Below, piece after piece: positions 26,808 through 62,400 of a stretch of 64,000 nt of DNA; position 1 is the first letter of the stretch, and each line of letters starts with the position of its first letter. The notes under the pieces were generated by a model that was given only the letters and a program-made list of their open reading frames with translations, did not search any database and was not told the origin of the DNA. A program made the translations under genes and the position numbers. The stretch covers positions 1 to 64,000 of the forward strand of contig DXAA01000011.1 of the NCBI GenBank assembly GCA_019117285.1. Direction: 5' to 3'. The DNA is from Candidatus Limosilactobacillus intestinigallinarum (GTDB lineage Bacteria; Bacillota; Bacilli; Lactobacillales; Lactobacillaceae).

Positions 26808-26837
26808 AAGTTGAGTCAGCCGACTCAACTTTTTTTG
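26808..26837 (+). terminator. Terminator after tRNA-Asp
   Basis: AAGTTGAGTC pairs with GACTCAACTT and runs into TTTTTT. The next gene's ribosome binding site lies only 15 nt later, so read-through may also serve that gene. Confidence 0.85.
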
Positions 26838-26861: not shown

Positions 26862-27737
26862 ATGGAAGCAAGTTGGCAGTACACCGGTACGGAGCCGGTC
26901 AAGATCAAGAAGTTCCTGCAGTCGTTGGGGATGGGGCACCGCCTCTTCAACGACATCAAGAAGGGGCAGGGGGAGTTTCTGGTTGACCACCGTCCGGTCC
27001 GGCCGACTACCAAGATCCTGCCCAACCAGCCGCTGACGATCAAAGTTAATCCCGAGCCGGCCGATCCAACGGTGACGGTCAGTCATGATCCCCTGCAGGT
27101 CGTTTACGAGGATGATAACTGGCTGGTCATTGATAAGCCGGTCGGGGTGGCCTCAATCCCCGGTCCCAGTGTGACCGACGGGACGATCCTGAACCGGGTC
27201 ACCGGCTACCTGATTGACCGGCAGTCACCCGACCAGCGGCCCCACCTGATCACCCGGCTCGACCGTGACACAGGGGGCCTCCTGCTGGTGGCAAAACATC
27301 ACGTAGCTTCAAGCATGATCAGCCAGCAGGTTCAGCAGCACCAGATGGTAAAGGAGTACACGGCTTTGGTCAGCGGTAACTTCACTGATGACCACGGCAC
27401 GATTGACCAGCCGATCGCCCGGGTGGTCGGCCAGGTCCGGCGGGTAGTGGCCAAGGATGGCCAGCCGGCACTGACCGAGTACTGGGTTGAGGACCAGGGC
27501 GACGGTTGGGCTCGCGTCCGGGTTCGTCTCCACACCGGTCGGACCCACCAGATCCGGGTCCACTTCGCTGCCATCGGCCATCCCCTGCTCGGTGACGCCC
27601 TCTATGGTGGGGACACCAGCCGGGTTAACCACCAACTGCTCCACGCCAGCCACCTGGCCTTTCTAGATCCCTTCAGTCGGCGCCAGCTCAGTTTTACCTC
27701 ACCGCTGCCGGCCGCCTTTAACGAAATTATGAAATAA
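26862..27737 (+). CDS. RluA-family pseudouridine synthase
   Basis: A 291-residue pseudouridine synthase of the RluA family, which isomerises uridines in rRNA or tRNA. The catalytic Asp is in the hallmark RLDRDTGGLLLVAK (about residue 131); DKPVGV precedes it and GRTHQIRVH follows. The N-terminal region is S4-like (IKKFLQSLGMGHRLFNDIKKGQG). Which RNA site it modifies cannot be told. GGGAGGT precedes the ATG. No promoter is visible between the tRNA-Asp terminator and this gene, so transcription may come from the tRNA promoter. Confidence 0.9.
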   Translation: MEASWQYTGTEPVKIKKFLQSLGMGHRLFNDIKKGQGEFLVDHRPVRPTTKILPNQPLTIKVNPEPADPTVTVSHDPLQVVYEDDNWLVIDKPVGVASIPGPSVTDGTILNRVTGYLIDRQSPDQRPHLITRLDRDTGGLLLVAKHHVASSMISQQVQQHQMVKEYTALVSGNFTDDHGTIDQPIARVVGQVRRVVAKDGQPALTEYWVEDQGDGWARVRVRLHTGRTHQIRVHFAAIGHPLLGDALYGGDTSRVNHQLLHASHLAFLDPFSRRQLSFTSPLPAAFNEIMK

Positions 27738-27784: not shown

Positions 27785-28501
27785 CTATTTTAGCAGGGCC
27801 TGAACCATCTTGGCTTGGAACTCCTGCTCGGCCTGCTGGGAGACAGCCCGGATCTGGGCGGCTGTCATGTGCGGGTTCTTGGCCATGGCGGCTTGGACCC
27901 GACCGGTAACGTAGCTTTGCCCCTGCTGGCGAGCCGCAGCCATGGCCTGCTGACCGGCCGGCGACTTGGCCTTAGCCCGCAGTTGCTGGGCCTGCTTGGT
28001 GGTCAGCAGGACGTAGGTCCGGGGGTATTCCAGGGTATTGGTCCGCTTGACCAGGGTACCGTCCATCCCGGACCAGGCGTAGAGCGTCTTATAGAAGTCG
28101 TTCTTGAAGCGCCAGCGGGTCGTAGTGGTCACGAGGCGGGGATTACCGGCCTGCTTCCACTTGACCTGACTGTGGGTGTATTCATTGGCCTGGGTGTGAC
28201 TTGGCTTCGCCTGGGCTGGCGTGGCCTTGTAGATGTAGACGTCGTCCTTGCCGCTGGTGCCGACCGGCTGGTAGAGGGCCAGCGGCATCTTGGCGTTGAC
28301 CGGGTAGATCCGGCGACTGGTGGTCGTGGTGACCTGGTGCATGCCGAAGTGGTGGCTGTAGTTCAGGGTCATCAGGGCCGTTGAGGCGACGAAGATCAGA
28401 CCGGTGATGGTGGCCAGAACGATCCGTGAAGCCTTGCTGTGGGTGAACATGATACTGAGGAAGAAGCAGATCGCCCCGAGAAAGGTTAAGACAATAACCA
28501 T
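27785..28501 (-). CDS. DUF4811 family membrane protein
   Basis: A 238-residue protein of the DUF4811 family, found in lactobacilli next to MFS drug transporters. Two membrane helices lie at the N-terminus (about residues 2-20 and 28-46), followed by an extracytoplasmic domain with the stretch RRIYPVNAKMPLALYQPVG and a basic, Ala/Gln-rich C-terminal helix region. No catalytic motif is evident. Its start overlaps the stop of the MFS gene by one nucleotide (TAATG), indicating translational coupling and a joint function, perhaps as an accessory part of the pump. The function is unknown. Confidence 0.8.
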   Translation of the reverse strand: MVIVLTFLGAICFFLSIMFTHSKASRIVLATITGLIFVASTALMTLNYSHHFGMHQVTTTTSRRIYPVNAKMPLALYQPVGTSGKDDVYIYKATPAQAKPSHTQANEYTHSQVKWKQAGNPRLVTTTTRWRFKNDFYKTLYAWSGMDGTLVKRTNTLEYPRTYVLLTTKQAQQLRAKAKSPAGQQAMAAARQQGQSYVTGRVQAAMAKNPHMTAAQIRAVSQQAEQEFQAKMVQALLK

Positions 28502-30003
28502 TAGTTGGCACCTCCCTTATCGTTGAGGATGTCTTCGCTGTCGATCCGCGGGTGAATCCCGTTGCCTGACGTGACGAAGAAGGTCAGAATCAACCCCAGG
28601 AAGGCGAAGGCAATGGCGAACCAGAAGGCGGCATGGTAGCCCATCAGGGTGGCGTCGAACATCTTGGCCTTGTACTGGAGTGGTGACTGGGTCAACAGGG
28701 CGTGACCCGGCTTGTGACTGTTGGTGATGTTGGTCAGCACTGAGATCATGATCGCGGTCCCGACGGAAGTGGCCACCTGCCGGATGGTGTTGTTGACCGC
28801 GGTCCCGTGGGAAATCAGGTTGTACGGCAGGGAGTTCATTCCGGCGGTCGTGACCGGCATCATGACCATTGAGATCCCAAACATCCGCACCGCGTAGAGG
28901 AAGACGATGTCGATGGTTGGGGTGTCCCGGGTGATGAAGGCAAAGGGCAGGGTGCCGACACAGAGGATGAACATCCCGGTGACGGCCAGCCGCTTGGCCC
29001 CGTAACGGTCAAAGAGGTTCCCGGTGATCGGGCTCATCAGTCCCATGAAGATTGCCCCGAAGAGTAGGGTCAGCCCAGAATGGAAGGCCGACATCCCGTG
29101 GATGATCTGCAGGTAGAGCGGGATAACCAGCTCGACCCCGACCATTGCCATCATGACGATGGAGCTGAGGGCCGTGGCGAGGGTAAATTCACCACTCTCA
29201 AAGACCTTGAATTCCAGGAAGGGTTCGTCGAGCTTGCCCTGGCGCCAGACCAGGATGGCGACCAGGATCGCCCCGACGATGATCGTGGTGATGACCACCG
29301 GATTGGTCCAACCCTTGTCTCCGACGCTGGAGAACCCGTAGAGCATGCTACCGAAACCAAGCGTCGAGATGACGACTGATAGCCAATCGAGGTGCGGGCG
29401 CCGGTTGGGAATGACGTTCTTGACGAAGACGAAGCTGGCCAGGATGACCACGGCGGCGATCGGGACGATCATCCCGAAGAGCCAGCGCCAGCTGAAATTA
29501 TCGATGACCCATCCGGACAGGGTCGGGCCGATCGCTGGGGCCAGTCCGATGACCAGGCCGTTGATCCCCATGGCGGCCCCCCGCTTCTCGGGTGGGTAGA
29601 TGGTCAGCATGATGTTTTGCATCAGCGGCATGTTGACCCCCACGCCGACCGCCTGGATGAGTCGTCCGGCGAGCAGGACGGCAAAGGATGGGGCCAGCCA
29701 GGACATGATGGTCCCCAACTCAAAGGTCGACATCGCCAGGATGAACAGCAAGCGCGTATTGAAGCGGCTGCTCAGGTAGGCGCTGACCGGGATCATGATC
29801 CCGTTGACCATCAGGAAACCGGTAGTTAGCCATTGAACCGTGGATGTGCTGATGTTAAAGGCATTCATTAATGCGGGGAAAGCGGTCGAGAGGATCGTCT
29901 GGTTTAAAATCGTACAAAAAGCCCCGATCAATAGGACCAGGACCATTAGGCTACGATTATAGGGTTTACCAGTGATATCAACCGCTTGTGCATCGTGATT
30001 CAC
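28501..30003 (-). CDS. DHA2-family MFS multidrug efflux transporter
   Basis: A 500-residue drug:proton antiporter with about 14 membrane segments. Motifs include NQTILSTAFPALMNAFNIS (D1), LSSRFNTRLLF (motif A region) and GLAPAIGPTLSGWVID (motif C). It resembles EmrB/LmrB-type pumps. I take the GTG at 30003 as the start because AAAAGAGGTC lies upstream and the promoter is at 30043-30071; the track's start lies too near the -10 box. It forms an operon with the DUF4811 gene and is divergent from a MerR regulator across a shared palindrome. Confidence 0.88.
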   Translation of the reverse strand: MNHDAQAVDITGKPYNRSLMVLVLLIGAFCTILNQTILSTAFPALMNAFNISTSTVQWLTTGFLMVNGIMIPVSAYLSSRFNTRLLFILAMSTFELGTIMSWLAPSFAVLLAGRLIQAVGVGVNMPLMQNIMLTIYPPEKRGAAMGINGLVIGLAPAIGPTLSGWVIDNFSWRWLFGMIVPIAAVVILASFVFVKNVIPNRRPHLDWLSVVISTLGFGSMLYGFSSVGDKGWTNPVVITTIIVGAILVAILVWRQGKLDEPFLEFKVFESGEFTLATALSSIVMMAMVGVELVIPLYLQIIHGMSAFHSGLTLLFGAIFMGLMSPITGNLFDRYGAKRLAVTGMFILCVGTLPFAFITRDTPTIDIVFLYAVRMFGISMVMMPVTTAGMNSLPYNLISHGTAVNNTIRQVATSVGTAIMISVLTNITNSHKPGHALLTQSPLQYKAKMFDATLMGYHAAFWFAIAFAFLGLILTFFVTSGNGIHPRIDSEDILNDKGGAN

Positions 30004-30042: not shown

Positions 30043-30105
30043 AATATAGTACAATTCGTTATCTTTGTCAAATAATTTGACAAAGCACTCGGATTAAATA
30101 ATAAT
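30043..30105. promoter_or_regulatory. Divergent MFS/merR promoters sharing one perfect palindromic operator
   Basis: CTTTGTCAAA (30063-30072) and TTTGACAAAG (30076-30085) are exact inverted copies with 3 nt between. Each arm contains a TTGACA -35 box. On the minus strand TTGACA pairs with TATATT at 17 nt spacing for the MFS gene; on the plus strand TTGACA pairs with AATAAT at 17 nt for the merR gene. Confidence 0.8.
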
Positions 30106-30586: not shown

Positions 30587-30656
30587 TTAACCTGACCGGA
30601 TTATTGTGGTATGGTGTAATTGAGCAATTATTTTTAATATGAAAGGGACGAGTCTT

Positions 30657-31004
30657 GTGAGTGAAGAAGGATTACATTATTCTGACCTGAGTGCCGAAGC
30701 CCAGGAACATGCCTTGAAGTCGTTTATCAACTACTACATCAAGCAGTATCGGCAGGGCAGTCTGGAAATTATGGGAGCCAAGGTTTCCAACGGGGTCATG
30801 GCGACGATCAACGAAACCCTCAATCTGAACAAGTTCATGGACCACAGTGAATTGGTTGCCGAGAGCTACCGGCTGTCCAAGAGCGCCTACGTCGAGATCA
30901 TGAAGCAGCTCACCGACGTGCTCTACCAAGAGGATGGCGAGCCGGTCGTGAACTGGGAGGTTGCCTGGGAGGACCAGGAAGAACAACTGCCGAGTGAAGA
31001 CTAA
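30657..31004 (+). CDS. Conserved hypothetical protein, 115 residues
   Basis: A small acidic, soluble protein I do not recognise by family. It appears helical with no signal peptide, membrane segment or metal motif; the C-terminus ends in an acidic stretch (EDQEEQLPSED). The start is probably GTG at 30657, since AAAGGGA lies 8 nt upstream and overlaps the earlier ATG in the track. It has its own terminator and stands between a MerR gene and rnjA, so the neighbours say little. Coding is supported by the ribosome binding site and by codon use like the neighbours. Confidence 0.7.
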   Translation: MSEEGLHYSDLSAEAQEHALKSFINYYIKQYRQGSLEIMGAKVSNGVMATINETLNLNKFMDHSELVAESYRLSKSAYVEIMKQLTDVLYQEDGEPVVNWEVAWEDQEEQLPSED

Positions 31005-59426: not shown

Positions 59427-62400
59427 TTGATTGATGTCAATAAATTTGAAAGCATGCAGATCGGTCTGGCATCTCCAGATAAGATCCGTAGCTGGTCTTA
59501 CGGTGAAGTAAAGAAGCCGGAAACGATCAACTATCGGACTCTGAAGCCGGAAAAGCAGGGCCTGTTTGACGAACGAATCTTTGGCCCAACTAAGGACTAC
59601 GAGTGTGCTTGTGGTAAGTACAAGCGGATTCGTTACAAGGGTCGGATTTGTGACCGCTGTGGGGTTGAAGTTACCAGTTCCAAGGTTCGTCGTGAACGGA
59701 TGGGCCACATTGAACTGGCCGCTCCGGTTTCCCACATCTGGTACTTTAAGGGAATCCCAAGCCGGATGGGCCTGGTCCTGGACATGAGCCCACGGTCCCT
59801 GGAAGAAGTTATCTACTTTGCTTCCTACGTAGTGCTTGATCCTGGTGACACCCCACTGGAGAAGAAGCAACTGCTCTCCGAAGCCGAATACCGTGACAAG
59901 AAGGCCGAATTTGGTAACCGGTTCACCGCTGAGATGGGTGCCGCAGCCATCAAGAAGCTGCTCGCCGATGTGGACCTGGAGAAGGAAGCCAAGGAACTCA
60001 AGGAAGAGTTGAAGGAAGCCACTGGTCAAAAGCGGACCCGGGCCATCCGGCGACTGGACATCCTGGAAGCCTTCATCAAGTCTGGTAACAAGCCAGAATG
60101 GATGGTCATGGATGTTATTCCGGTTATGCCACCGGACCTGCGTCCAATGGTTCAACTGGAAGGTGGCCGGTTTGCCACCTCTGACCTAAACGACCTCTAC
60201 CGGCGGGTCATCAACCGGAACAACCGGTTGAAGCGGCTGCTCAAGCTGCAAGCCCCTGGGATCATCGTGCAAAACGAAAAGCGGATGCTGCAGGAAGCTG
60301 TTGACGCTCTGATCGATAACGGTCGGCGGGGTCGTCCGGTTGCCGGTCCGGGTAACCGTCCGCTGAAGTCCCTGTCCCACCTGCTCAAGGGTAAGCAAGG
60401 GCGGTTCCGTCAAAACCTGCTTGGTAAGCGGGTCGACTACTCTGGTCGTTCCGTTATCGATGTTGGTCCATCCCTGAAGATGAACCAGATGGGTCTGCCA
60501 GTACCAATGGCCCTCGAGTTGTTCAAGCCATTTATCATGCACGAACTGGTTAAGCGGGGCCTGTCCGCCAACGTCAAGGCGGCCAAGCGGAAGATCGACC
60601 GGCGTGATGACGATGTCTTCGACGTATTGGAAGACGTTATCAAGGAACACCCAGTATTGCTGAACCGGGCACCTACCTTGCACCGGCTTGGTATCCAAGC
60701 CTTCGAACCAATCCTGGTTTCCGGGAAGTCCATGCGGCTGCACCCACTGGTATGTACCGCCTACAACGCCGACTTCGATGGTGACCAGATGGCCATCCAC
60801 GTGCCGTTGTCTGACGAGGCTCAGGCTGAAGCCCGCTTGCTGATGCTGGCTGCCCACCACATTCTGAGTCCACGTGACGGTGAACCAATCGTGTCACCAT
60901 CCCAGGATATGGTTATCGGTAACTACTACATGACCACTGAAGACAAGGGTCGTGAAGGCGAAGGAATGATCTTTAAGGACACCGACGAAGCTGAAATGGC
61001 CTACAAGAACGGTTACGTTTCCCTGCAGACCCGGGTCGGTGTTCAGGTATCATCATTCCCTGACAAGCCATTCACCGACGAACAACGGGGTCGGATCATG
61101 GTAACCTCCGTTGGTAAGCTCCTCTTCAACCGGATCATGCCAAAGGACTTTGCCTACATCAACGAACCAACCGATGCCAACATTCATGAAGGGGTTGACG
61201 ACAAGTTCTTCCTTGAACCTGGCGAAGACATCCATGAATACCTCGAAAACGCACCACTGGTTCCACCATTCAAGAAGGGCTTCCTGTCCGACCTGATTGC
61301 CGAAGTTTACAAGCAGTACAAAGTTACCAAGACCTCCCAGTTCCTGGACCGGATCAAGGACCTTGGTTACTACGAATCCACGATTTCTGGTCTGACTACC
61401 GCCATGTCCGATATTCATGACCTGCCAGAAAAGCCAGAGATCATTAAGAACGCTCGTAAGCAGGTGGCCCTGATCACCAAGCAGTTCCGTCGTGGCCTGA
61501 TCACGGACGACGAACGGTACGAGCGGGTTATCGCTGCCTGGAACGACGCCAAGGATGAGGTTCAAAACAAGCTGATTGAGCACATGGATATCCACAACCC
61601 AATCAACATGATGTCCGACTCCGGTGCGCGTGGTAACATTTCTAACTTCACCCAGCTGGCCGGGATGCGTGGCCTGATGGCTTCACCAAACGGTAAGATT
61701 ATGGAGCTGCCAGTCCTGTCCAACTTCTACGAAGGGCTGTCTGTCCTGGAAATGTTCCTGTCCTCACACGGTGCTCGTAAGGGGATGACTGATACCGCCC
61801 TGAAGACCGCTAACTCAGGTTACCTGACCCGGCGGCTGGTTGATGTTGCTCAAGACGTCGTTGTTCGTGAAAAGGACTGTGGTACTGACCGTGGTCTGGA
61901 AGTTACTGCCATCACCAACGGTAACGAAATGATCGAACCACTGTACGACCGGATCATGGGTCGTTACACCATGAAATCCGTCTTCGACCCGAAGACCGGC
62001 GAGAAGATCGTTGGCAAGAACGTCCTGATCGACGAAGACATGGCCCAGAAGATCGTTGACGCTGGGGTCAAGAAGGTTACGATTCGTTCCGCCTTCACTT
62101 GCAACACCGAACACGGTGTCTGCGAACGTTGCTACGGCCGGAACGCCGCTACTGGTGACCGGGTCGAAGCCGGTGAAGCTGTCGGGACCGTTGCCGCTCA
62201 ATCAATCGGTGAACCAGGTACTCAGCTGACCTTGCGGAACTTCCACACTGGTGGTGTTGCCGGCAACGACGATATCACCCAAGGTCTCCCTCGTGTGCAA
62301 GAAATTGTGGAAGCCCGGAACCCTAAAGGTCGGGCAACGATCAGTGAGGTTACCGGTGAGGTTGTCTCCATCGAAGAGAACCCGGCTGAACGGACCAAGG

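Follow-up and report, generated by a model that had tools for sequence, protein, structure and literature searches.

Described regulators and pumps of related type

Divergent pairs of an efflux pump and its repressor that share one operator are known, TetR and tetA being the model. The locus described here is like them in that a single operator would lie between regulator and pump and control both, but its regulator belongs to another protein family and the two arms of the operator coincide with two -35 boxes. Classical MerR activators (MerR, CueR, SoxR, BmrR) have the wHTH domain family in common with this regulator. They bind inside spacers of 19-20 nt and activate transcription by untwisting the DNA (PMC5045206), whereas the present site sits over the -35 boxes instead of within a spacer, and the spacers measure 16-18 nt. 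MerR-type repressors also exist, namely CvkR, HnoC, McdR and BldC (PMC9938897). CvkR (Alr3614), the repressor of V-K CRISPR-associated transposons, binds a palindrome and is the best Foldseek match of the regulator's predicted fold (7xn2, E 3.8e-4, with a low overall TM-score of 0.47), ahead of CueR and GlnR. Its motif, AnnACATnATGTnnT, lies within the spacer or covers the -10 box and the start site (PMC9938897), in contrast to the position over two -35 boxes seen here.

By sequence, the best matches in the PDB are structures of the GlnR/TnrA type (7tea, 7tec, 4r4e), GlnR being mainly a repressor. The box recognised by these proteins has the literature consensus TGTNAN7TNACA, and the core of the palindrome, TGTCA-AATAATT-TGACA, conforms to it. 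The 17-bp half-site spacing is the same, the frame is that of the boxes found before glnR in relatives, and the regulator shares with GlnR/TnrA a segment N-terminal to the wHTH. The half-site differs, TGTTA(G/T) in GlnR/TnrA boxes and TGTCAA here. The C-terminal tail of GlnR and TnrA is flexible and binds feedback-inhibited glutamine synthetase, while the present protein is modelled with a small beta domain and appears dedicated to one divergent pump locus.

For the pump, the closest described system is the Lactococcus lactis pair of EmrB and DUF4811 proteins Llmg_1210-Llmg_1211, which exports c-di-AMP and whose operon is led by the MarR gene rmaX (PMC6108528); the pump type is therefore common to the two loci and the regulator is not. 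The order of an EmrB-type MFS gene followed by a DUF4811 gene is the same here, and by this gene order the pump may be a candidate c-di-AMP exporter.

MerR-type repressors and shared divergent regulator/pump operators are thus already known, and no published account of a MerR/DUF4811 operator was found in the open-access literature. The new part would be a predicted MerR repressor acting on a box of GlnR frame whose two arms are two -35 boxes, an arrangement conserved through Lactobacillales. Neither this spread nor the GlnR/TnrA geometry of the 17-bp core figured in the initial annotation of the locus.

The palindrome, its promoters and the regulator

A perfect palindrome, CTTTGTCAAAT-A-ATTTGACAAAG, separates the MerR gene from the MFS/EmrB-DUF4811 operon and overlaps both divergent promoters (Table 1). 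The initial annotation was right about its perfection but gave the arms 10 bp; each has 11 bp (30063-30073 and 30075-30085), 100% complementary around a 1-nt centre at 30074. The divergent TTGACA boxes with 17-nt spacing that it had read in the two arms were recovered as promoter-like sites scoring 11/12 on each strand, and domain matches agree with its naming of a divergent MerR/MFS pair with a DUF4811 partner. The centres of the -35 hexamers (30068.5 and 30079.5) are 11 bp apart, which puts both TTGACA on one face of the helix. The likely start of the pump gene is a GTG at 30003-30001 preceded by AAAGAGG, while the mechanical list of open reading frames gives a TTG at 30054.

Table 1. Features of the MerR/MFS-DUF4811 locus (positions in the 64-kb window)
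Feature	Position	Strand	Basis or remark
DUF4811 membrane protein, second gene of the pump operon	27785..28501	-	PF16069, E 6.5e-52
MFS efflux pump, DHA2/EmrB type	28501..30003	-	PF07690; TIGR00711, 360.6 bits
Pump promoter -10 box TATATT	30043..30048	-	17-nt spacer, kept in 85/85 loci with a -10 match of 4/6 or better
Operator palindrome (putative), CTTTGTCAAAT-A-ATTTGACAAAG	30063..30085	.	Inverted repeat; conservation; 5-nt gap fixed in 85/85 loci
Conserved core TGTCAA-N5-TTGACA	30066-30082		Within the putative operator palindrome
Pump promoter -35 box TTGACA	30066..30071	-	In the left arm
Regulator promoter -35 box TTGACA	30077..30082	+	In the right arm; conserved in aligned loci
Regulator promoter -10 box AATAAT	30100..30105	+	17-nt spacer; best spacing 16-18 nt across loci
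MerR-family regulator, 149 aa	30137..30586	+	PF13411/PF00376; AlphaFold model; Foldseek

When gaps of up to 5 nt are considered, this is the longest perfect palindrome in the window, that is, in the whole stretch of 64,000 nucleotides analysed. In first-order Markov simulations of the window, palindromes of that size number 0.07 on average, and none of 3000 simulated intergenic regions held one. The core TGTCAA-N5-TTGACA occurs a single time in the window; a match with one mismatch at 59435 falls where the rpoC coding frame begins and is put down to chance. The 21-bp site pattern has no second copy at up to 3 mismatches in the source genome, of which the assembly is 67% complete, and the scan of the family counted one site per genome. 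A regulon of several sites was rejected on these two grounds. A second perfect palindrome, AAGTTGAGTC-AGCC-GACTCAACTT at 26808-26831, has 10-bp arms and a 4-nt gap; it stands just upstream of a pseudouridine-synthase-like ORF at 26862 and is possibly a terminator stem.

The regulator exceeds the curated cut-offs of the MerR wHTH families PF13411 (43.9 bits; cut-off 21.6) and PF00376 (40.9 bits; cut-off 28.2), and the MerR domain is matched in all 66 of its aligned relatives. The nearest named relative is from Limosilactobacillus pontis (95%). In the AlphaFold model (mean pLDDT 92) the wHTH is preceded by one helix and followed by two (residues 59-73 and 78-102), and the C-terminal part forms a four-stranded sheet (residues 105-145). 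The helix that follows the wHTH is short and of dimerisation type; as the model is a monomer, the geometry of the dimer is one that we infer. Residues 105-145, modelled as a beta domain with a mean pLDDT of at least 90, are a candidate ligand-binding domain. They carry a conserved I-LG...P...VYA pattern that has no Pfam match. Downstream of the regulator gene, a conserved ORF of 121 aa (30639-31004) matches nothing in Pfam convincingly (best E 0.019).

Conservation of the site in Lactobacillaceae and Lactobacillales

Orthologues of the regulator are present in 50 of the 54 genomes of the genus Limosilactobacillus, and relatives in 306 of the 401 sampled genomes of the family. The family comparison was made on 110 regulator loci, 97 adjacent to an MFS gene and 13 not. 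The search for the arm sequence before orthologous pairs, which the initial annotation had proposed, returned the exact core TGTCAA-N5-TTGACA in 85 of the 97 MFS-adjacent loci, all 85 divergent, and in none of the 13 paralogous MerR loci without an adjacent MFS gene; shuffled upstream regions gave 0.01 loci with the core. As only exact cores are counted, the six core positions are bound to look fully conserved in the logo, and the informative numbers are these fractions of loci. No recognisable site was found at some pump-adjacent loci (L125, L136, L140 and L153).

The gap between the two hexamers is 5 nt in all 85 loci, at distances between the two start codons that range from 118 to 261 bp. 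A pump -10 box with at least 4/6 matches is found at exactly 17 nt in each of them, while the best spacing of the regulator -10 box is 16 nt in 52 loci, 17 nt in 25 and 18 nt in 8. The spacers of 19-20 nt typical of classical MerR activators are therefore absent on both sides, as the initial annotation had it for this one locus.

Within the genus the palindrome is conserved beyond the needs of a -35 box, as ATCTTTGTCAAATWATTTGACAAAGAT. Three loci have TTGATA or TTGCTA as the regulator-side hexamer but retain AAAGAT at the palindrome's outer edge, and one locus has both arms changed together (TGTAAATAATTTTTACA). Complementarity of the inner pentamer at +/-2 is found in 98% of sites in Limosilactobacillus and in 5% of 55 distinct sites from other genera.

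The site is also present outside Lactobacillaceae. A search for DUF4811 in 149 Lactobacillales genomes yielded 20 loci that were read: the 17 linked to a MerR gene have the exact core (14) or a near copy of it (3), and the 3 without a MerR gene, one of which has a MarR-like gene instead, lack the exact core. In the four genomes of the genus without the regulator, the paralogues of the pump and DUF4811 genes have neither the site nor a GlnR-like box; one of these paralogues is divergent from a TetR gene, and others had no regulator that could be identified beside them. The site therefore goes with the regulator and not with the pump. In the tree of the regulators the site-bearing proteins do not form one clade, paralogues being nested among them, and the tree is poorly resolved, so that no single origin is claimed for them.

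One exception (L025; G036:C1, 303477-306911) was set aside from the comparison. It has an rnj-like end, a small gene, the MerR gene and the MFS gene in one orientation and joined stop to start. The record seems to be a string of coding sequences placed end to end and not a true chromosome; having no intergenic DNA, it cannot carry the site. At another locus (L200 of genome G173, positions ~2520-2640) three GlnR-like 17-bp boxes, TGTTAAAAAATCTTACA, TGTCAAATTTTCTTACA and TGTTGTAAAAACTTACA, lie between the MFS and MerR genes, which suggests that the site was multiplied in that genus.

Control of the pump and regulator genes

The palindrome is best read, with a probability of about three in four, as an operator devoted to the MerR-family protein encoded next to it; a dimer of that protein would repress both the pump-DUF4811 operon and the regulator gene until a ligand releases it. 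Its near letter-for-letter conservation across lactic acid bacteria argues that it is very probably a single switch holding both genes off. The homodimer would insert its two recognition helices into the major grooves of both TTGACA sequences and exclude sigma from the two -35 boxes, a single binding event thus turning off the operon and, by autoregulation, the regulator. Bile acids, or some other amphiphile that the pump exports, are plausible ligands, and their release of the dimer would bring both genes on together. The spacers of 16-18 nt need no untwisting of the MerR type. The proposal of the initial annotation that an operator covers both -35 boxes accords with a site that this gene pair keeps in different genera and families, that has a fixed 5-nt gap and that tracks the regulator; every comparative test that was run also agrees with its view of this MerR member as a probable plain repressor.

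Three proteins of Enterococcus faecalis whose accessions run consecutively (Q838M3-Q838M5), namely a MerR regulator, an EmrB/QacA transporter and an uncharacterized one, rise under all five bile-acid conditions and belong to the 37 proteins raised in every one of them (PMC10988882). Linked to the present locus by their names and accession order, they probably represent the same locus type. A joint rise of this kind is what a single repressor acting on both sides would produce.

The fit of the core to TGTNAN7TNACA is exact and the MerR wHTH is closest to GlnR by sequence, two features that would suit a nitrogen-control box for GlnR/TnrA, with the pump as a member of the nitrogen regulon. This is very unlikely, and a GlnR site was rejected on the ground that GlnR was undetected at E <= 1e-8 in all 54 genomes of the genus, whereas in other genera the same query, as a positive control, recovers it from 17 of 18 genomes at E <= 1e-13. 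The site is kept where glnR was not detected, and copies of the pump without MerR have no box. Boxes before glnR in other genera are of the type TGTTAGAAAATCTAACA and not TGTCAA-N5-TTGACA, and the genes named in the published additions to the GlnR regulon of Lactobacillales are other ones (PMC3616900). The MerR regulator is not itself the orthologue of GlnR, as true GlnR genes coexist with it in other genera. Two ordinary promoters placed back to back would also give symmetry, that of two consensus -35 boxes, and the regulator could then bind elsewhere or act as an activator. Both boxes match the sigma-A consensus, TTGACA, and are well partnered by -10 boxes, and part of the TTGACA conservation does stem from promoter function. 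Against this stand the invariance of the 5-nt gap, the extension of the palindrome past the hexamers in the genus, the retention of the outer flank in copies with a damaged -35 box and the lack of a site where the regulator is absent; an activator of MerR type, moreover, would find no 19-20 nt spacer to correct on the pump side. We regard such a pair of plain promoters as improbable.

The -35 boxes are so close that two polymerases could hardly bind at once, and promoter competition may add to repression by the dimer. That competition is the main switch, with one polymerase bound at a time and MerR tilting the balance to the pump instead of blocking both genes, is consistent with the geometry, namely the 11 bp between hexamer centres and a spacing fixed across the order. 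Little weight is given to it: the symmetry of the operator offers no obvious way of favouring one side, and regulator and pump rise together under bile acids in E. faecalis, unlike a see-saw, if that locus is homologous (PMC10988882). A wider proposal, in which a MerR repressor of GlnR frame senses bile acids or c-di-AMP in a single-operator regulon found across Lactobacillales and the 17 bp, besides being the operator, serve as a mutual-exclusion element admitting one polymerase at a time, is unlikely.

With repression by the neighbouring regulator as the preferred reading, the site gives a precise predicted operator to a MerR group that has had little study and that accompanies DUF4811-type pumps in gut and food lactic acid bacteria, and would make a MerR-family protein a plain repressor seated on two -35 boxes. 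Should the link to bile acids be true, the motif marks a conserved gut-stress switch that can be read in any Lactobacillales genome. As the frame of the GlnR box would here serve a different regulator, scans for GlnR motifs in the order could pick up these sites wrongly.

Nitrogen control may work differently in Limosilactobacillus, GlnR being undetected in the 54 genomes and nearly universal in the other genera sampled. Though no GlnR was found in it, the source genome holds 16 matches to TGTNAN7TNACA, against 7 for the reversed pattern.
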